A stretch of DNA of 49,842 nucleotides from an uncultured Gammaproteobacteria bacterium. GTDB taxonomy: Bacteria > Pseudomonadota > Gammaproteobacteria > Pseudomonadales > Pseudohongiellaceae. Position numbers and translations under genes: made by a program. This document shows, in pieces, positions 1-18,652 of the stretch. The notes beneath the pieces were generated by a model, which searched no databases, was not told the origin of the DNA, and saw only the letters and a list, made by a program, of their open reading frames with translations. Each line of letters begins with the position of its first letter. The stretch's first letter is position 1. The stretch covers positions 1 to 49,842 of the forward strand of contig CAILUG010000030.1 of assembly GCA_903837345.1 (NCBI GenBank), in the 5' to 3' direction.

Positions 1-186
1 CCCTGAACTGCGCAAATTGCACATCAGGAGCAGGGCGGTCTATTCATGGAAAGCGCCCGCGGCTCTCGTAGCCACCGCCCCTGAACTGCGCAAATTGCAC
101 ATCAGTAGCAGGGCGGTCTATTCATGGAAAGCGCCCGCGGCTCTCGAAGCCACCGCCCCCAGAACTGCGCCAATTACTCACCAATT
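1..186. repeat. 78-bp tandem repeat, at least two copies plus a degraded third
   Basis: Two near-identical units of 78 bp lie in tandem, at about 1-78 and 79-157. They differ at only a few positions (cagg/cagt, cgta/cgaa). From about 158 a third unit begins but decays after some 15 bases. Each unit contains an inverted repeat, gggcggt ... accgccc, about 48 bp across. The first unit starts at base 1, so the array may extend out of the window. It sits just past the 3' end of tRNA-Thr (minus strand). There are no unique spacers, so it is not a CRISPR. The period is a multiple of three but I see no evidence that it is coding. Confidence 0.8.
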
Positions 187-9424: not shown

Positions 9425-11602
9425 ATGAAATCATATTCCCGCTGGCACACGCTGCCGCTCGTGCTGACAGGTACGCTCCTCGCTTCCGGCCTTCAGGCAC
9501 AAGACATCAAGGGTGCAGCAAATACTTCTGCCGTTAACGGCAACGCTGCGGCAGCACCCGAAGTTATTGAAATTATCGGCGCCCATCTCAAAAGTGCCCG
9601 CATTGAGTTGTCGCCCGAAGTCGGGACAACGGTGTATACGCTGGACGAGCACATGATCAATACCCTTGGCCAGGGTGATGACACGCCATTCAACGAAGTA
9701 TTGTTGCGGCTTCCGGGCGTTTCGGAAGATTCCAAGGCGTCAGGATCGCTGCATATTCGTGACGACCACGGCAATGTCCAGTATCGCGTCAATGGCGTGC
9801 AACTGCCGGAAAGCATTTCCGGCTTCGGGCAATCGATTGATACCCGCCAGGTCGACAAAATCGACTTCATTACCGGGGCCCTGCCGGCACAGTATGGCTT
9901 GCGCACTGCGGGCATCATTGATATCGAAACCAAGGAAGGCGGCACCAAACCCGGCGGCCAGGTGGGCATCCTGGCTGGCAGCAACCATTATGTTGAACCC
10001 AGCGCAGAGTTTTTCGGCAGTTCAGGCAATTTCAATTACTACCTGTCTGGCAGCTATCTCACGGATTCAATCGGCATCGAGAATCCGGTTTCCGGCAAGA
10101 CCCCGATTCACGACGACACCCGTCAATCCAAAACCTTCGGAAGTCTTTCGTATTTCACCGACGATGACACACGATTCGGCCTCATGTTCGGCACATATAG
10201 CGGCAGATTCCAGATCCCCAACAACCCGGGTCAGGTTGTCGGCTATTCGCTGACCGCCATGAGTAACGCCAATAACGATACCAGCAGCCTGCCTTCGTCA
10301 CAGCTCAACGAGAACCAGACAGAAACCAACCGTTACGTGGTCCTGTCCTACCAGAAGAGCCTTGGTGACCTCAACTTCCAGGTTTCCGGTTTTCATCAAT
10401 ATTCAGAACTGCATTACCGGCCCGACCTCGCTGGTGACCTGATATTCAACGGTGTCGCCTCCAACACCTTGCGCTCCAACAGTGCCAACGGGCTGCAGTT
10501 TGACGCCAGCTTCAAGCTGAACGACACGCATACCGTGCGCGCCGGCCTCGAATATACGCGGCAGGCCACCGAGAGCAACAACACGGTAGTTGTGTTCCAT
10601 GCCGATAATGCCGGTGCGCAACTGGGTACCGATCCGTTCACCGTGATCGACAATTCCGGCAAGACCGGCACCCTCGGCAGCCTTTACCTGCAAGACGAAT
10701 GGCATATCACAACCCCTTTGACGCTGAACTATGGTCTGCGCTATGACCAGGTCTCGGCATTTGTTGACGAGCAACAATGGAGCCCGCGTTTCAACCTCGC
10801 CTATGCCTTGAACGAAGACACTGCGTTGCACGCGGGGTATTCGCGCTACTTTACGCCACCACCCCAGGAATTGGCTTCGCAAGCCAGCATCCAGTTCTAC
10901 GCCAATACCACCAACGCTCCCAAGATCATGTTGTCAGACAACGTCAAGTCGGAACGAACCCAATATTTCGATATTGGTGCCAGCCGGAAGATCGGTGCAA
11001 CCCTTACGCTAACGGCAGACGCTTACTACAAGAAAGTCGCCAACCTTATTGACGAAGGCCAGTTTGGACAGGCGCTGATCCTGTCTCCGTTCAACTACGC
11101 CCAGGGTCACGCCAAAGGGCTGGAATTGTCGGCGATCTACAACGAGAAGCCGTGGGGCGGATACCTGAACTTCACGGTGCAGAAAGCGCAAGCCCGCAAC
11201 ATCATCTCGGGACAAGCATTGTTTGCGCAGAACGAATTGAACTATATCGCCAACAATTTTGTGTACCTTGATCACGACCAGACCTATTCGATATCGGGCG
11301 GGGCTCACTATGATTTTGGCGACTCCCAGATCAGCTCCGATGTTCTGTATGGCAGCGGTTTGCGCCGCACACCTGCTGGAGGTGCCCCCAATTCTGCCAC
11401 CTTGCCGCAGCATACGATTGTCAATATGACCTTGACACATACATGGATGGATACCGCCGCTGGCAGACTTGAGAGCCGGCTTTCACTGCTTAACATGTTT
11501 GACCAGTCGTATTTGCTGCGTGATGGCAGCGGAGTTGGCGTAGGGGCACCGCAATACGGTGCGCGGCGGACTCTGTATGCCGGAATCTCCTTGAGCTTTT
11601 GA
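9425..11602 (+). CDS. TonB-dependent outer membrane receptor
   Basis: A 725-residue TonB-dependent receptor. The signal peptide ends near GLQAQD. A TonB-box-like region EVIEIIGAHL precedes a plug domain (about 60-185) with FNEVLLRLPGVSEDSKASG, LHIRDDHGNVQYRVNGVQLP and TGALPAQYGLRTAGIIDIET. The barrel follows and ends in an aromatic terminus (ISLSF). The ligand is unknown. Its neighbours are the His/Cys small protein upstream and the Tat/Lys-Gly peptide with its PqqD-methyltransferase downstream, all on the same strand. That makes transport of a metal or a modified peptide worth considering, but this is inference from position only. Confidence 0.92.
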   Translation: MKSYSRWHTLPLVLTGTLLASGLQAQDIKGAANTSAVNGNAAAAPEVIEIIGAHLKSARIELSPEVGTTVYTLDEHMINTLGQGDDTPFNEVLLRLPGVSEDSKASGSLHIRDDHGNVQYRVNGVQLPESISGFGQSIDTRQVDKIDFITGALPAQYGLRTAGIIDIETKEGGTKPGGQVGILAGSNHYVEPSAEFFGSSGNFNYYLSGSYLTDSIGIENPVSGKTPIHDDTRQSKTFGSLSYFTDDDTRFGLMFGTYSGRFQIPNNPGQVVGYSLTAMSNANNDTSSLPSSQLNENQTETNRYVVLSYQKSLGDLNFQVSGFHQYSELHYRPDLAGDLIFNGVASNTLRSNSANGLQFDASFKLNDTHTVRAGLEYTRQATESNNTVVVFHADNAGAQLGTDPFTVIDNSGKTGTLGSLYLQDEWHITTPLTLNYGLRYDQVSAFVDEQQWSPRFNLAYALNEDTALHAGYSRYFTPPPQELASQASIQFYANTTNAPKIMLSDNVKSERTQYFDIGASRKIGATLTLTADAYYKKVANLIDEGQFGQALILSPFNYAQGHAKGLELSAIYNEKPWGGYLNFTVQKAQARNIISGQALFAQNELNYIANNFVYLDHDQTYSISGGAHYDFGDSQISSDVLYGSGLRRTPAGGAPNSATLPQHTIVNMTLTHTWMDTAAGRLESRLSLLNMFDQSYLLRDGSGVGVGAPQYGARRTLYAGISLSF

Positions 11603-11634
11603 ACCGCGCTAACCGTCCGTATTGCATATGGCTG

Positions 11635-11680
11635 GCTTATGGCCCCGACTCTGGCCGGGGGCCTGAATACGCATAAGTCC
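11635..11680 (+). terminator. possible hairpin terminator after the TonB receptor
   Basis: GGCCCC (11641-11646) pairs with GGGGCC (11658-11663), and flanking CTTAT/ATAAG could extend the stem imperfectly. No T-run follows directly, so termination is uncertain. It would separate the receptor transcript from the Lys-Gly peptide gene. Confidence 0.35.
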
Positions 11681-11869
11681 CTGAACACGCCCGGTTTTTG
11701 CTCTGGGACAAAAAAAGTTTGATTGTTGATAAAATTTTTATGGCCTGCGGACCAACTCCAGCCTAAAGTCAGCGCGTCAGGATCATCATTTTTCTGTCAT
11801 GCAGAGAATTGAAGGAAAGCTGACAGCATGCTGGTTCCATTTCCAACTATTACTAAAAGGTATGATGCA

Positions 11870-12115
11870 ATGGCAGACAAGACTCTGATTGATTCTCTTC
11901 TCAAAGACATGCAGCCCACCCGTCGCGGCTTTCTCAAAAGCGCACTGATGGTCGGCGGTGCTATGGCACTGATTGCCGCTCCAACCTCTGCTGTTCTGGC
12001 TGCTGATGAACCAGAAGGCGACGGCAAAGGAAAAGGCAAGGGTAAAGGCAAAGGAAAAGGCAAGGGTAAAGGCAAAGGAAAAGGCAAAGGCGAAGGCGAA
12101 GGCGCTCCCCAATAA
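11870..12115 (+). CDS. Tat-exported small peptide with eleven Lys-Gly repeats (putative precursor peptide)
   Basis: An 81-residue protein with three clear parts. Residues 1-16 are a polar leader. Next is a textbook twin-arginine signal, TRRGFLK (17-23), with a hydrophobic core ending AVLA-AD, so cleavage is expected near residue 44/45. The mature part is short and acidic at its ends: ADEPEGDG, then (KG)11 at residues 53-74, then EGEGAPQ. The ATG at 11870 is chosen because AAAAGG lies nine bases upstream; an in-frame ATG at 11828 lacks one and would push the Tat motif further in. The mature peptide has no fold I recognise and carries eleven lysines spaced by glycine. The next gene encodes a PqqD-like/methyltransferase fusion, so this looks like a ribosomally made substrate for modification. 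Function unknown. Confidence 0.85.
   Translation: MADKTLIDSLLKDMQPTRRGFLKSALMVGGAMALIAAPTSAVLAADEPEGDGKGKGKGKGKGKGKGKGKGKGKGEGEGAPQ
12026..12091 (+). repeat. 24-bp tandem repeat encoding (Lys-Gly)11
   Basis: The Lys-Gly tract is built of a 24-bp unit (codons aaa gga aaa ggc aag ggt aaa ggc) present twice in full and once in part. The synonymous codon pattern repeats exactly, which indicates recent duplication at the DNA level and likely variation in copy number between strains. Confidence 0.9.
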
Positions 12116-12135
12116 GCTCGGACATTAACGAGGCA

Positions 12136-12163
12136 ATCAGGCACCACGTCGTTGGTGCCTGAT
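12136..12163 (+). promoter_or_regulatory. perfect 11-bp hairpin between precursor and modifying enzyme
   Basis: Arms 12136-12146 and 12153-12163 are perfectly complementary around a CGTCGT loop. The hairpin lies 20 bp after the peptide stop and five bp before the ATG of the methyltransferase gene. No T-run follows, so it is more likely a partial terminator, an mRNA-stabilising 3' end, or a structure that hides the ribosome site of the next gene. It would allow much more peptide than enzyme to be made. Confidence 0.7.
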
Positions 12164-12168
12164 CTTCC

Positions 12169-13350
12169 ATGTCACTTTCCACACCATCCGCACCCTGCTC
12201 TCCAGCCACACCAATTTGTGCCAGCCCGTTCAATGCCATAGCTTGTCATGAGGCTGGCTATCTCGTTTACAATCTGCGATCAGGCCAGCTCCACAAACTG
12301 AATACGACAGCTTCACTGCTGCTGGAATTCTGCTCCACCCCAAGAACCCCGCACGATGTTGAAGCCTGGCTGCAGCTGATTCCCGGCTGTGACCTTGCCG
12401 GCTGGCAACAATGGCTTGCACAAGCGCTCACTGAACAATTGCTGGTTACCACCACTTCAGAAACTGCACCTGCCGTCAGTGAATTTTCAAAAACAGCGCA
12501 AAAATTGCGTGATAACGGTGAAATTCGGGCTGCCTGCATTTGTCAGGAACATGTGGTCACGCTGCAGCCACAACGGGCTGCCAACTGGCTGGCGCTGGGC
12601 GAGCTGGCCCACATACTCGGACGTCGTGACCAGGCCAGGCAGGCCTATACCGAATATCTGAAACTGCGACCTGACAATGCCGAAGCCGCGCACATCCTGG
12701 TGGCCCTGCAGGATCAGGCCCCGCCGGCACGCGCACCTGATGACTGCATCAGGCAACTTTATTCGCGCTTTTCCGGCTTTTATGAAAAGAACATGTGTGA
12801 GGATCTGGAATACCAGGGCCCCTCACGCCTCAATGAAATACTTGAAGAGGCGCTTGCTGATACGGGCAATCTCGATATCCTCGAGCTCGGCTGCGGCACC
12901 GGGCTGGCTGCCGGTTATCTGAGGCCGCGCGCGAACCGGTTGACTGGCATCGACCTTTCACAGGAAATGCTCGATCAAGCTGCAAAAACCGGCCATTACG
13001 ATCAGTTGCAGATGGCGGAAATCACCGCATTCCTTGGCGCCGGCGCCGACCTTTATCACCTGATCGTGGCCTGCGACACCTTCATCTATTTTGGCGATTT
13101 GTCGCAGGTGCTGGTGCCCGCTGCAGCCAGACTCCACTCGCACGGGTGGATGGTCTTCACCTGCGAACTGGGCGAAGGCGATTCATTCAAACTCACCGAT
13201 TCCGGCCGCTACACGCACAGCGAAAAACATGTCCGCACCGTGGCTGCCAGCAGCGGCTTTGCCGTGGCGGGTTTGCGCGAAGGTTTTCTGCGCAAGGAAT
13301 ATGGCGAACCCGTTACCGGGCTGATGGTGGCCTTGCACAAGCTGAACTGA
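12169..13350 (+). CDS. PqqD-like domain / TPR / SAM-dependent methyltransferase fusion
   Basis: A 393-residue three-part protein. Residues about 20-95 read like a PqqD-type domain: [25 protein letters not shown], then a helical part ending [11 protein letters not shown]. This fold is known in RiPP pathways for gripping precursor leaders. Residues about 105-180 form two to three TPR-like helical pairs ([22 protein letters not shown] type). Residues about 190-393 are a class I methyltransferase with motif [14 protein letters not shown], an acidic [11 protein letters not shown] after it, and a C-terminal ALHKLN strand. No signal peptide is seen, so it acts in the cytoplasm, before Tat export of the neighbouring Lys-Gly peptide. 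That peptide is the obvious candidate substrate. Methyl transfer to its lysines is inference. No clear ribosome site lies before the ATG; the hairpin covers that position. Confidence 0.85.
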
Positions 13351-13352
13351 AT

Positions 13353-13487
13353 TTTGTAAGGCAGCGTCTGCACTTCTACCGACAATACCGGCGGCAGATC
13401 GCGCGCGATGGCTGTCCAGTTGTCGCCGGCATCATCGGAACTGAGAATGAAAGCCCCATACGGGTGCCGGCCAATACTCGCACATTG
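13353..13487 (-). pseudogene. remnant of a BNR/YCF48-like repeat protein
   Basis: On the minus strand, 45 codons after a TAG (13488-13490) encode a segment containing [19 protein letters not shown] followed by [11 protein letters not shown]. This is the characteristic Asp-box (SxDxGxxW) pattern and closing strand of BNR/sialidase-type beta-propeller proteins. There is no start codon, the rest of such a protein is absent, and the frame simply runs into the neighbouring methyltransferase gene. It looks like the 3' scrap of a lost gene next to the hydrolase. The assignment rests on the motif alone. Confidence 0.45.
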
Positions 13488-13508
13488 CTAATGGGCTTCT
13501 CCCTGGAG

Positions 13509-14556: not shown

Positions 14557-15006
14557 ATGAAATTTCTGCTGAAAAGTGCGATGTTATTACCGCTCATTCT
14601 GGTCCCGGCATTGGCCATGGCGGCCCGTCCAGGCTATGTAGGCGGGCATGGCGGCTTTGGCGGCCCGTCCCATTTCATCAGGGGTCCCGTCTATCGTCCA
14701 CATTATTACAGCTCCTTTGGTCTGGGGGTTGGTGTCGGCTTCGCTCTGGGCTACCCCTATTACGGCTACCCCTACTATGGCTCTCCCTATTATTACGGTC
14801 CGCCACAGGAAGTGATCGTCGAGCACAACACCTACGTGGAGCCGTCGGATGGCACCACCACAGTTATCAGGGACGCTGTGCCTGCCCCCAGAGCATCCGG
14901 CACCAGCCTGCTGCGCGATCTGCAAGGCCGCTGCTATCGACGCACCTATGATCAGAACGGTAACGAGCAGCGTACCGAGCTTGATCCCGGTATGTGCAAC
15001 TTCTGA
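14557..15006 (+). CDS. Gly/Tyr-rich secreted protein of unknown function
   Basis: A 149-residue exported protein. The signal peptide is cleaved near LAMAA-RP. The next part (about 25-85) is low-complexity, rich in Gly, Tyr and Pro, with YPYYG-type repeats (GYPYYGYPYYG, then SPYYYG). It ends in a conserved-looking tail of about 45 residues, SLLRDLQGRCYRRTYDQNGN, with two cysteines (CYRR and MCNF) that could pair in the periplasm. A strong AGGAGG ribosome site sits five bases before the ATG. I recognise the general type (small periplasmic or surface proteins with a Tyr-rich middle) but not a named family. Confidence 0.75.
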   Translation: MKFLLKSAMLLPLILVPALAMAARPGYVGGHGGFGGPSHFIRGPVYRPHYYSSFGLGVGVGFALGYPYYGYPYYGSPYYYGPPQEVIVEHNTYVEPSDGTTTVIRDAVPAPRASGTSLLRDLQGRCYRRTYDQNGNEQRTELDPGMCNF

Positions 15007-15118: not shown

Positions 15119-15178
15119 CGCGGGCCATCACGCAATGCTTTTGGCGTGGCCCGCTTTGCGATACAAGGAACCTTTGGA

Positions 15179-17284
15179 ATGAGCGACAGTATCACCTTCG
15201 AACACACCCTCAAGCACAGTTCTGTCAAACACTGCCTGGCCAGATCAGTCACCAAGGCACTGTTTGGCTGCATCCCGTTAAGTTTGCTGGCGCTCTCCCA
15301 CGCGCTGGCCCAACAGAATACCGGGGCTACCCCAACCCCTGCCCCCAATGGCGAAATTGAAGAAATTGCGGTATTTGGACGCAACACCGACTTGCAAGGC
15401 AAGGCCGAGGCCGCCAGTGAAGGATCGGTGGGTGGTGCTGACCTGGTGATTCGCCCGATGTTCAAAACCGCTGAGCTGCTGGAATCGATGCCAGGCATGG
15501 TCGCCGTGCAACACTCGGGCAGCGGCAAAGCCAACCAGTATTTCCTGCGTGGTTTCAACCTCGATCATGGCACCGACTACACCGCTCTCATTGACGGCAT
15601 GCCGTGGAACCTGCGTTCACATGGCCATGGCCAGGGCTATCTGGACGTGAACGGGCTCATCCCTGAAATCGTTGATCGCATCGATTACCGCAAAGGTCCT
15701 TACCGCGCTGATCTGGGTGATTTTGCGATGGTGGGGGCCTCTTTTATCAAGACCATAGATTCGCTGGAACAGCCCTTCGTTTCTGCCGAAATCGGACAGA
15801 ACGGCTGGATGCGCTATGCCGGGGGTATCAGTGAAAGCGTCAATGGCGGCACCCTGACAGTGGTTGGCGAAACCAAACGGTACGATGGCCCGTGGCAGAA
15901 ACCGGAAGACCTCGAACATTATTCGGTATGGACCAAATACGTGAAGGACACCAGTTATGGCCGCGCCCTGATTACCCTCTCGGGCTACAACGCCAAATGG
16001 GATCCGACTGAGCAAATACCTGAACGTGCAATCGGGACAGCAGTTTGTGCTGATGCCTTTTGCTCACTGGATTCCACTGCCACCGGCAAAACCTCACGCT
16101 GGATTCTGACCAGCCAGTTACAGGGCAATGACTGGAGTGCCACGCTATATGGCCAGTATTACAACTGGGCGATGACCTCCAACCCCACTTACGATTACCA
16201 GATCGGCCAATTCGACAAACGTTGGACCATGGGCGGCAGCGCCGACAAGACCCTTGTTGATAATCAGGACTGGCTGGTCACTGCCGGTGGTGTTTTCCGC
16301 TATGACGACATCTCCAGGGTTGGCGTGAGCCACTATAACCAGGGAGTGTTTGTCTCCCCGATCAGCGATAACGCCATCAGTGAAGGTTCCGCCGGCGCCT
16401 ATCTGGAAACCACGTGGTTCGCTACCCGCGATCTGCGGGTGCTGGGCGGACTACGCGGTGATTACTACAATTTTGATGTTACCGCACACACCGCCAGCAG
16501 CAATGCCGGGCAAGTATCGGAAACCAGAGTCTCACCGAAAGTAGGGCTTGCCTATGCTGTGCTCGACAACCTTGAGCTGTATGGCAACTGGGGCAAGGGT
16601 TTTCACTCCAATGATGCACGCGGTGTGGTTAATGCTACTGCACCCATACAAGGGCTTTCGCCCGGCACCGGCTATGAAGTTGGTGCCCGCACCAAGCTGG
16701 GCGCTTTCAAATTTACTGCCGCCTACTGGTGGATGCATGAGAGCAGTGAATTGATCTTCATAGGTGACTCCAACGCTGTTGAACCCAGAGGTGCGTCGAA
16801 ACGCAAAGGACTCGAGCTGACCATGTTCTGGCAGCCGCTGGATTGGCTGGGGATGGACGCTGTCTATACCAGCAGCAATGCCCGCTTCCTCAACAACCCC
16901 GATGGCCCTTATGTGGACGGTTCGCTCGAAAAAGCCGCCGAGCTTGGCATTTCTGCTACGCGTGATAAATGGGATGCGAGTCTGCGGGTGCGCTACATGG
17001 GACAGTATGCGCTGTTGGCTGACAACTCTGATCGTGCCGGACCACTGACCACCGTCAGCCTGCGCGGTGCCCATCACTGGACATCGCTGACTGTCTATGC
17101 CGAAGTGATCAATCTGCTCGATACCGACAAAAAGGAAATCGTCTACAACTATCCTGCCTATGTGAAAGGACTCGATCCGGCCGGCCTCACTTCGGCAGAC
17201 ATCGATTGTGCTACCGTCAACTGTCGCTTAAGCCGCGCCACCGAGCCGAGAACTTTCAGGGTAGGTGTAAGTTACAAATTCTGA
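15179..17284 (+). CDS. TonB-dependent outer membrane receptor
   Basis: A 701-residue TonB-dependent receptor. A long N-terminal region leads into a signal peptide cleaved near HALAQQ. A TonB-box-like IEEIAVFGR follows, then the plug with LLESMPGMVAVQHSGSGKAN, QYFLRGFNLDHGTDY and VDRIDYRKGPYRADLGDFAM. The barrel ends in RVGVSYKF. The plug pattern LRGFNLDHGTD is seen in receptors for metal chelates or vitamins, but I cannot name a ligand. An in-frame GTG at 15146 exists, but AAGGAA stands eight bases before the ATG at 15179. It is followed after 78 bp by an Nramp-like transporter on the same strand, which hints at a metal-related role. Confidence 0.92.
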   Translation: MSDSITFEHTLKHSSVKHCLARSVTKALFGCIPLSLLALSHALAQQNTGATPTPAPNGEIEEIAVFGRNTDLQGKAEAASEGSVGGADLVIRPMFKTAELLESMPGMVAVQHSGSGKANQYFLRGFNLDHGTDYTALIDGMPWNLRSHGHGQGYLDVNGLIPEIVDRIDYRKGPYRADLGDFAMVGASFIKTIDSLEQPFVSAEIGQNGWMRYAGGISESVNGGTLTVVGETKRYDGPWQKPEDLEHYSVWTKYVKDTSYGRALITLSGYNAKWDPTEQIPERAIGTAVCADAFCSLDSTATGKTSRWILTSQLQGNDWSATLYGQYYNWAMTSNPTYDYQIGQFDKRWTMGGSADKTLVDNQDWLVTAGGVFRYDDISRVGVSHYNQGVFVSPISDNAISEGSAGAYLETTWFATRDLRVLGGLRGDYYNFDVTAHTASSNAGQVSETRVSPKVGLAYAVLDNLELYGNWGKGFHSNDARGVVNATAPIQGLSPGTGYEVGARTKLGAFKFTAAYWWMHESSELIFIGDSNAVEPRGASKRKGLELTMFWQPLDWLGMDAVYTSSNARFLNNPDGPYVDGSLEKAAELGISATRDKWDASLRVRYMGQYALLADNSDRAGPLTTVSLRGAHHWTSLTVYAEVINLLDTDKKEIVYNYPAYVKGLDPAGLTSADIDCATVNCRLSRATEPRTFRVGVSYKF

Positions 17285-17362: not shown

Positions 17363-18652
17363 ATGAACAGCAATTCCCCCAGGAAGGACAAAACCAGAAC
17401 TGACAATGTGTCATGGGTAAAGAAGCTGGGGCCGGGGCTGATCTCGGGTGCGGCAGATGATGACCCGAGCGGCATCGCCACTTATTCACAGGCTGGCGCC
17501 CAGTTCGGCACCAACATGTTATGGACGCTGTTTTTCACCTATCCGCTGATGGTGGGCATCCAGATGATCAGTGCCCACATCGGACGTGTGAGCGGCCAGG
17601 GCCTCGCCGGCAATATCCGCCAGCATTACTCCCGCGGCTTGTTGTATTTTGTGGTTGGCCTGCTGCTGGTCGCCAACACCATCAACATCGCAGCCGATTT
17701 GTCGGCGATGGGTGACGCCCTGAAACTGATGACAGGAGGCCCCTCGCATTTGTATGCGCTGGCATTCGGCCTCTTCTCGCTGGTGTTGCAGATTTTCATT
17801 CCCTACTCGCGTTATGTACGCATCCTGAAGTGGCTCACTCTCGCCCTGCTCGCTTATGTCGGCACCATTTTTGTAATCGATATTTCGTGGCCAGAAGTAA
17901 TCTCACATACTGTATTTCCGCAGTTGTCATGGAGTCCTGCATTCATCACAACAGTGGTGGCAGTGTTTGGCACTACCATCAGCCCGTATTTGTTTTTCTG
18001 GCAGGCTTCGCAGGAAGTGGAGGAACTGGCCGCAAATCCTGATGCCAAGCCACTCAGGTTTGCCTATGACCAGGCGCGCGCCAACCTGAGCCGTATAAAA
18101 ATCGACACGCTGATCGGCATGGGATTTTCCAACATCGTGGCTTTCTTCATAGTCTTGACCACAGCCATGACCTTGAATGCGCATGGCCTCACCGACATAC
18201 GAACCTCAGCCGAAGCTGCGTCTGCGTTGCGACCGATTGCCGGCGATTTTGCATTCTTTTTGTTTGGCGCCGGCATCATCGGTACCGGCCTGCTGGCCAT
18301 CCCGGTGCTGGCAGGCTCTGCTGCTTACGCAATGGCGGGAGCATTCCAGTGGCATGACAGTCTGGAAGCCACTTTCAGCAAAGCCAGGGAGTTCTACGGC
18401 ATCATCGGTCTTTCGACCACCATCGGCATTGTGTTTTGCTTCATGCCGCTGGACCCGATCAAAACACTCTACTGGAGTGCCGTTATCAATGGTGTGATTT
18501 CGGTTCCCATCATGATGGTGATGATGATGATGGCCACCAACAAGAACATCATGGGCCGGCTGGTGATCGGGAACAAACTGGCCGGGCTTGGCTGGCTGTG
18601 CACACTGGTGATGACAGTGGTGGTAGCTGTCATGTTTCTCACTTTGTTCTAG
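17363..18652 (+). CDS. Nramp-family divalent metal transporter, variant clade
   Basis: A 429-residue inner-membrane protein with about 11 hydrophobic helices and the Nramp layout. The first helix carries ADDDPSGIATYSQAGAQFG (Asp34) where canonical Mn/Fe transporters have DPGN. The helix-6 motif reads TTISPYLFFWQ where they have MPH. The metal-coordinating Asp is therefore kept, but the Asn and Met positions are replaced by Gly and Ser. Such changes are known in Nramp-related branches with other ion preference, including Mg2+ transporters, so Mn2+ should not be assumed. Its stop codon overlaps that of the convergent kinase gene at CTAG. Confidence 0.88.
   Translation: MNSNSPRKDKTRTDNVSWVKKLGPGLISGAADDDPSGIATYSQAGAQFGTNMLWTLFFTYPLMVGIQMISAHIGRVSGQGLAGNIRQHYSRGLLYFVVGLLLVANTINIAADLSAMGDALKLMTGGPSHLYALAFGLFSLVLQIFIPYSRYVRILKWLTLALLAYVGTIFVIDISWPEVISHTVFPQLSWSPAFITTVVAVFGTTISPYLFFWQASQEVEELAANPDAKPLRFAYDQARANLSRIKIDTLIGMGFSNIVAFFIVLTTAMTLNAHGLTDIRTSAEAASALRPIAGDFAFFLFGAGIIGTGLLAIPVLAGSAAYAMAGAFQWHDSLEATFSKAREFYGIIGLSTTIGIVFCFMPLDPIKTLYWSAVINGVISVPIMMVMMMMATNKNIMGRLVIGNKLAGLGWLCTLVMTVVVAVMFLTLF

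Follow-up and report, generated by a model that had tools for sequence, protein, structure and literature searches.

A candidate RiPP-like gene pair joining a PqqD-like/TPR/methyltransferase fusion enzyme to a Tat-signal peptide with a Gly-Lys core

The locus described here raises the question of whether a short gene for a repeat peptide and the methyltransferase gene that follows it on the same strand form a two-gene system, in which the enzyme would recognize the leader of the peptide and modify its core. Both genes lie in a stretch of 49,842 nucleotides from an uncultured gammaproteobacterium of the Pseudohongiellaceae (assembly GCA_903837345.1, contig CAILUG010000030.1), which is referred to as a whole as the window. 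A preliminary description had proposed that the leader guides the methylation of eleven lysines and that the product is then exported by the Tat pathway.

Features of the peptide and of the fusion enzyme

The coordinates of the features are given in Table 1. The peptide consists of a 17-residue extension, a Tat signal formed by RRGFLK and a hydrophobic stretch, a (GK)11 core in which the lysines alternate strictly with glycine over residues 52-74, and a GEGEGAPQ tail. By its twin-arginine signal it is classed as a Tat substrate: the NCBIfam model TAT_signal_seq (TIGR01409) scores 18.7 bits against a cut-off of 16.7, and the Pfam model TAT_signal reaches 21.1 bits, slightly under its cut-off of 22.7. 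The signal peptidase site is probably situated near A44/A45. Since 3.3 tandem copies of a 24-bp DNA unit underlie the core, the regularity of the core is probably in part the product of recent expansion. The short peptide gene with a ribosome site, a repeat core and an export signal, as first described, is thus borne out by the ORF, the AAAAGG sequence, (GK)11 and the TIGR01409 match; the eleven lysines hold for the window copy and do not extend to the relatives, whose core patterns differ. No sigma-70 consensus promoter was found across window positions 11600-13500.

Table 1. Positions in the window of the features of the peptide gene, the spacer and the enzyme gene.
Feature	Position	Strand	Remarks
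Likely ribosome-binding site AAAAGG	11855..11860	+	nine bases 5' of ATG 11870
Precursor-like peptide gene	11870..12115	+	81 aa, in-frame ATG 11870
LxxPhi motif L11-K-D-M14, candidate PqqD-domain recognition sequence	11900..11911	+	9/9 peptides
Twin-arginine motif RRGFLK	11921..11938	+	TIGR01409 above cut-off
Core, alternating Gly-Lys, 11 lysines	12023..12091	+	over 24-bp DNA repeat
Intergenic stem-loop	12136..12163	+	11-bp stem, 6-nt loop, no T-run; z -4.84 vs dinucleotide shuffles
PqqD-like/TPR/class I methyltransferase fusion gene	12169..13350	+	393 aa, 53 bp 3' of peptide gene
PqqD-like (RRE) domain, about aa 22-88	12232..12432	+	predicted three strands then three helices
TPR region, about aa 103-180	12475..12708	+	Pfam, model
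Class I SAM methyltransferase domain, aa 195-393	12751..13347	+	ELGCGTG at 12883-12903

Several other repeats were observed. A 149-aa ORF at window 14557-15006 has a signal-like start, a YPYYG-type repeat and no Pfam or NCBIfam match, and a 78-bp tandem repeat occupies the contig edge (window 1-175). In genome G082, a (GGCAAA)n array (L036:1501-1575) lies within a universal-stress-protein-like frame, seemingly splitting it between two frames; a similar array is found in L037, and such DNA repeats occur elsewhere in this order.

The enzyme is assigned by sequence to the class I SAM methyltransferases through its Rossmann domain and GxGxG-type motif; Pfam Methyltransf_12 scores 41.3 bits against a cut-off of 30, and the SAM motif GCGTGL is invariant in a nine-row enzyme alignment. 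Pfam TPR_8 scores 25.6 bits against a cut-off of 25.7. The methyltransferase domain is generic and by itself does not reveal its target. Its best NCBIfam models, BioC and UbiG, both remain far under their cut-offs, and the Pfam model Methyltransf_16, 'Lysine methyltransferase', exceeds its cut-off in two of six scanned homologues (L074 and L108) with scores that are lower than those of general methyltransferase models and not diagnostic of lysine methylation. The full-length enzyme was modelled poorly (pLDDT 62.3), and its best Foldseek matches, mostly small-molecule methyltransferases, include NodS (an N-methyltransferase by title), BioC and NNMT. A defence role was considered and set aside, the one PADLOC match, mad2, being limited to the methyltransferase part.

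On the window copy the Pfam PqqD model scores 15.5 bits, below its cut-off of 23.4, and the assignment of a PqqD-like domain there therefore rests on relatives and fold. Five of the six scanned homologues (L074, L196, L197, L005 and L108) pass this cut-off, with 34.2, 36.8, 30.6, 26.0 and 26.7 bits, and L112 (in G779, the copy without a peptide) gives no match at E up to 0.001. Eight members of the nine-member enzyme alignment match PqqD at E up to 0.1, the exception presumably being L072, which is without its N-terminus. When the N-terminal domain was modelled in isolation (pLDDT 76.4), the nine best PDB chains found by Foldseek all came from RiPP proteins, six of them lasso-peptide B1 proteins titled as leader-complexed (entries 6jx3, 5v1u, 5v1v) and three from sactipeptide biosynthesis (5why, 5wgg); the best match has an E-value of 0.024 and a probability of 1.00, and none falls under 0.001. 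From sequence and model together, the enzyme appears to carry an RRE/PqqD-like domain whose fold matches have weak E-values. The leader-binding domain of the preliminary description accordingly gains support from three sides: the PqqD matches in relatives, a fold that best resembles RiPP leader-binding proteins, and a conserved leader motif. Identity with the PqqD of PQQ biosynthesis is not supported, as the curated PqqD equivalog cut-off is not reached. None of the 25 NCBIfam models listed for the window enzyme reaches its cut-off, and TIGR03859, which is not among them, matches four of the nine enzyme members at E up to 0.01.

Linkage, leader motif and distribution

Twelve genes with the fusion architecture were collected: those of the window, G006, L072, G510 (= L074), G799, G557, G672, G536, G779, G715, G1245 and G1082. 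Three are proteobacterial and nine belong to the phylum of the Planctomycetaceae MAG that contains L074. A protein search of 95 related genomes, combined with a two-row profile in 137 genomes of the family and 390 of the order, yielded one further full-length copy, G006, from the same genus as the window and 51% identical to its enzyme. A pattern scan of named genome contigs returned three loci: L072, in a Betaproteobacteria MAG, on a 3.8-kb contig that starts within the gene and may have been misbinned; L073, in an uncultured Gammaproteobacteria MAG, with the same sequence as the G006 contig throughout the stretch compared; and L074. Across 297 genomes of the class of L074, the enzyme profile gave seven matches of at least 330 bits, followed by one of 221 bits that does not cover the PqqD part, and G1245 and G1082 were added from a sample of 246 genomes of the same phylum. 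A wide distribution of the full-length enzyme was rejected, since it occurs in 2 of 137 family, 1 of 390 order and 1 of 258 class genomes; this single carrier is the genome of the window.

A tree was built from the last 270 residues of the 12 enzymes and of 27 TPR-methyltransferases selected from the loci collected, with a midpoint root for drawing only. The fusion enzymes form one clade (support 100/100), and the three proteobacterial copies cluster (98/92) within the others, a grouping that suggests transfer between phyla. Carriage as mobile-element cargo was also considered and found no support: no enzyme relative was confirmed in viral contigs, none of 29 plasmid records covers 80% of the enzyme in one place, and the one phage-labelled record matches enzyme residues 60-386 at 29.3% identity, with no K/G-rich or leader-motif ORF in the surrounding 5.2 kb.

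A Tat-signal peptide rich in lysine and glycine adjoins nine of the ten intact enzyme genes for which both flanks are visible (window, G006, G510, G799, G557, G672, G536, G1245 and G1082), ten being judged because L072 is cut at a contig end and G715 is a truncated remnant. The neighbourhood survey thus did not return the unlinked distribution that the preliminary description had named as evidence against itself. The peptide gene stands second in G510 and first in the other eight. The pairs of G1245 and G1082 came to light after the pattern had been noted and, as close relatives of each other (enzymes 82.5% identical, flanks in common), amount nearly to one test. Judged by sequence, a putative precursor gene stands beside its candidate modifying enzyme in conserved linkage. 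The intact enzyme of G779 has no adjacent Tat Lys/Gly peptide. Upstream of it, on the minus strand (L112:6348-7106), lies a gene for a Gly/Pro-rich protein with a Sec-like signal and, by eye, EF-hand-like motifs, which is possibly an alternative substrate of that enzyme.

No third recurrent gene accompanies the pair: every other ORF match among the ten loci compared is confined to two of them at most, and membership in a larger cluster was rejected on that ground. The remaining flank matches, such as a sigma-factor-like ORF in L074 and L112, join two loci each, and when L196 and L197 (the loci of G1245 and G1082) were added, they shared flanking ORFs only with each other. Among the loci compared, neither a peptidase gene nor a transporter gene is a recurrent neighbour of the pair. 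In the window, the pair is flanked on both sides by TonB-dependent receptors, and an Nramp-type transporter is also present (9425-11602, 15146-17284 and 17363-18652); these were not found at the other loci of the ten-locus comparison.

All nine peptides carry an LxxPhi motif placed at -7/-4 from the first twin arginine, with Leu at -7 and a hydrophobic residue at -4 (LKDM, LDGV, LEHV, LEQI, LSQI, LDGV, LSTI, LKTV and LKSV). Among 30 ordinary Tat signals from six of these genomes, namely those of 112 matches for which loci were available, Leu at -7 occurs in none, a hydrophobic residue at -4 in six and LxxPhi in none. The leader motif is conserved and, as far as sequence can tell, distinct from the export function; the shared residues reflect descent in part, because the nine peptides are homologous. 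RREs of groups including FusE, McjB, PqqD and StsC bind a W/Y/LxxP/L/I sequence according to the accessible text of PMC12710340, and the LxxPhi of the peptides resembles this sequence by analogy. What the analysis directly supports is the conservation of the pair, its domain composition, the motif in the leader and the lack of a third recurrent gene.

The leader pattern LxxPhi-x3-RRxF, set after the peptides had been seen, was found in 9 of 11 fusion loci (10 intact and 1 remnant) and in none of 51 control loci. Composition in lysine and glycine gave 7 of 11 against 0 of 51 at the original threshold, which G1245, G1082, G779 and G715 fail, and 9 of 11 against 0 of 51 when the threshold was loosened to 0.85, likewise after the peptides had been seen; L196 and L197 reach 0.89 of the original value. 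The controls are methyltransferase relatives in which the profile match leaves at least some of the PqqD part uncovered (in L105 it starts at position 53), the absence of PqqD being judged from match range alone. Their loci reach 1.5 kb beyond the match, part of that being the gene itself, and L006 and L067 are one place.

A profile of seven peptides matched 35 of 297 genomes at E up to 1e-4, of which five reach at least 69.8 bits, all of them enzyme carriers, and the next scores 47.1; a leader-only profile of nine peptides matched 30 of 170 genomes, with four enzyme carriers at 68.6 bits or higher and the next at 28.1. Because the top matches were themselves in the profiles, the weight lies in the absence of other strong matches, and no comparably strong unlinked peptide appeared in the planctomycete sample. 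Of the 30 weaker peptide-profile matches, 17 were inspected, and most of these fall in low-complexity parts of unrelated proteins or reading frames. L126, L140, L141 and L143 encode proteins that look signal-bearing and K/G- or Q/G-rich (L126 with an EF-hand-like motif by eye), and none of their genomes was identified as an enzyme carrier by the 297-genome profile search; secreted-looking K/G-rich proteins in such enzyme-free genomes (L126, L141, L143) indicate that segments of this kind can serve unmodified. With the window peptide as query against the 95 relatives of the window, eight matches were obtained at E up to 1e-3, and the window and G006 alone matched at E below 1e-10 over more than the repeat. 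A possible relic is present at L135:1501-1680 in G539, a genome for which the 297-genome enzyme search gave no full-length copy: this short frame is Tat-like and contains GKGKG. A sigma-factor-like frame lies just upstream of it (1212-1475), as one does before the peptide gene in L196 (373-1005).

The spacer of G006 also contains hairpins (z -3.61), and those of G557, G536, G799 and G510 reach z-scores of -3.4 or lower against mononucleotide shuffles. By the same shuffles the spacers of G672, G1245 and G1082 give no signal (-1.0, -0.9 and 0.1), and the hairpin was therefore rejected as a universal feature. In some members the stem-loop may keep the amount of peptide high relative to that of the enzyme.

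Proposed pathway and competing explanations

At a probability of roughly 60%, we read the pair as a candidate RiPP-like class in which, on sequence and models, RRE-guided methylation of the core lysines would take place in the cytoplasm and be followed by Tat export. Both products would probably come from one transcript, with the peptide abundant and the fusion enzyme less so. The PqqD-like domain would bind the LxxPhi stretch that immediately precedes the twin arginine, the flexible core would be positioned by the TPR region, and the methyltransferase domain would methylate this core repeatedly, most likely on lysine side-chain nitrogens. Leader binding, methylation, the choice of lysine, the order of modification and export, and the function are steps that we infer. 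Action in the cytoplasm is expected because SAM is needed and no export signal was found on the enzyme among its family matches. Tat exports finished proteins, which would allow time for modification, and the Tat-proofreading chaperones TorD and DmsD hold back the export of other Tat substrates. Binding beside the twin arginine could likewise delay Tat export until modification is finished, after which cleavage of the signal would take the leader with it and set a methylated polycation free in the periplasm or envelope. Since the leader should be lost in this way, a lasting modification would have to sit in the core. A more detailed version is tentative, and we place it somewhat short of even odds: the RRE-TPR-methyltransferase would read the Tat signal as leader and methylate poly(Gly-Lys), possibly to trimethyllysine, giving a permanently cationic, protease-resistant exported polymer, with the RRE acting as a Tat quality-control gate and the cassette having moved between planctomycetes and proteobacteria.

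The composition of the cores bears on the target. Seven cores contain 11-22 Lys, 15-45 Gly and 11-18 GKG each, with Cys absent or single and His absent; those of G1245 and G1082 have 12 Lys, 15-16 Gly, 3 GKG, an RRRR stretch and many prolines. GKG thus occurs 3-18 times per peptide, and Lys and Gly are plentiful in all nine. With Cys and His scarce or absent, this composition makes lysine the best candidate. As the window core contains neither Cys nor His, metals look least likely among the ligands first suggested for the product. An EF-hand occurs in two family members, read from the sequence as G510 and G799. In L074:9244-9783 and L108:6363-6761, an EF-hand unit lies between K/G-rich stretches of the family peptides.

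An RRE-guided methyltransferase might instead modify something other than lysine, by O-methylation of Asp/Glu carboxylates in or beside the core, by N-methylation of Arg, or at another site. This is unlikely in our estimation: BioC and UbiG, the best though sub-threshold NCBIfam relatives, are O-methyltransferases, every one of the seven cores holds 5-11 D/E, and RRRR is found in G1245 and G1082, yet D/E are fewer than Lys in all seven, three of these cores lack Arg (the others have 3, 3, 5 and 7), and it is Lys and Gly that abound throughout the nine peptides. We think it quite improbable that the enzyme mainly guards the Tat signal in the manner of TorD/DmsD, its methylation falling on the leader or being regulatory and discarded with the signal peptide. 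The conserved motif does directly precede the twin arginine, and conservation of the SAM motif is silent on which part is modified; a short low-complexity core, however, should need no folding check, and a modification that is discarded would give no reason to maintain a core rich in Lys and Gly.

The peptide could also be an unmodified secreted polycation, structural or polyanion-binding, with an enzyme that acts on a small molecule or lipid and is linked for other reasons. The secreted-looking K/G-rich proteins of enzyme-free genomes and the predominance of small-molecule methyltransferases among the best enzyme folds would agree with this, but the linkage persists whichever gene comes first and although the flanks are mostly unrelated, and the enzyme bears a peptide-binding type of domain; the explanation has, in our view, a low probability. 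That a GGCAAA-type DNA repeat fell by chance into a Tat-protein gene beside an unrelated enzyme is exceedingly improbable. Such an array does lie inside a stress-protein-like frame in L036, and the window core is itself a 24-bp repeat, but the recurrence of the pair in nine of ten enzyme loci, with differing core order, refutes a chance repeat, and the leaders match even under low-complexity masking. Leader-guided methylation of the core lysines remains our preferred reading.

Relation to known systems and significance

The closest sequence relatives of the enzyme are TPR-methyltransferases whose matches stop short of the PqqD part, a group that we take to be COG4976, 'predicted methyltransferase, contains TPR repeat'; they fall outside its clade in the tree, and none of their 51 loci has a K/G peptide or a leader-motif ORF. 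The heparin-binding haemagglutinin HBHA is, to our knowledge, not a leader-guided small peptide. It resembles the present case, with no sequences compared, in being a surface protein with a methylated, lysine-rich C-terminal domain, as stated in the accessible portion of PMC8467707. METTL9 in complex with a substrate peptide ranks 49th among the Foldseek matches of the full enzyme model. It is a class I methyltransferase whose target motif alternates a given residue with a small one, in its case histidine in HxH (PMC12269839, as far as its accessible text goes); with a histidine target, no RRE and a eukaryotic origin, it offers an analogy only.

With RRE-dependent RiPPs (TbiB1 and other lasso-peptide B1 proteins, the PqqD of PQQ, sactipeptides) the pair shares a PqqD-like RRE, an LxxPhi-type leader motif and a small precursor gene beside the enzyme, and the best fold matches of the N-terminal domain are lasso-peptide B1 proteins with leader. 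Unlike in these systems, the RRE is here fused to TPR and methyltransferase parts as the only enzyme, the leader doubles as a Tat signal, the core is low-complexity Gly-Lys, and no peptidase or transporter gene recurs alongside. The DUF2063/DUF2282 systems, as described in the available part of PMC12710340, also combine an export signal within the precursor leader with RRE pairing; their precursors carry Sec signals, unlike the Tat signal and methyltransferase found here, and neither DUF2063 nor DUF2282 is among the Pfam matches listed. The system was not described in the literature searched, which left out most subscription papers and all bioRxiv.

RRE-dependent RiPPs are known; what would be new is a candidate RiPP-like class that joins an RRE-methyltransferase to a Tat-signal leader. 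The cassette is small enough for reconstitution in E. coli in one experiment. If the reading is true, it would represent a minimal two-gene RiPP class with a Tat signal as leader, it would connect the recognition of RiPP leaders to quality control in the Tat pathway, and it would provide bacteria with a genetically encoded methylated polycation.
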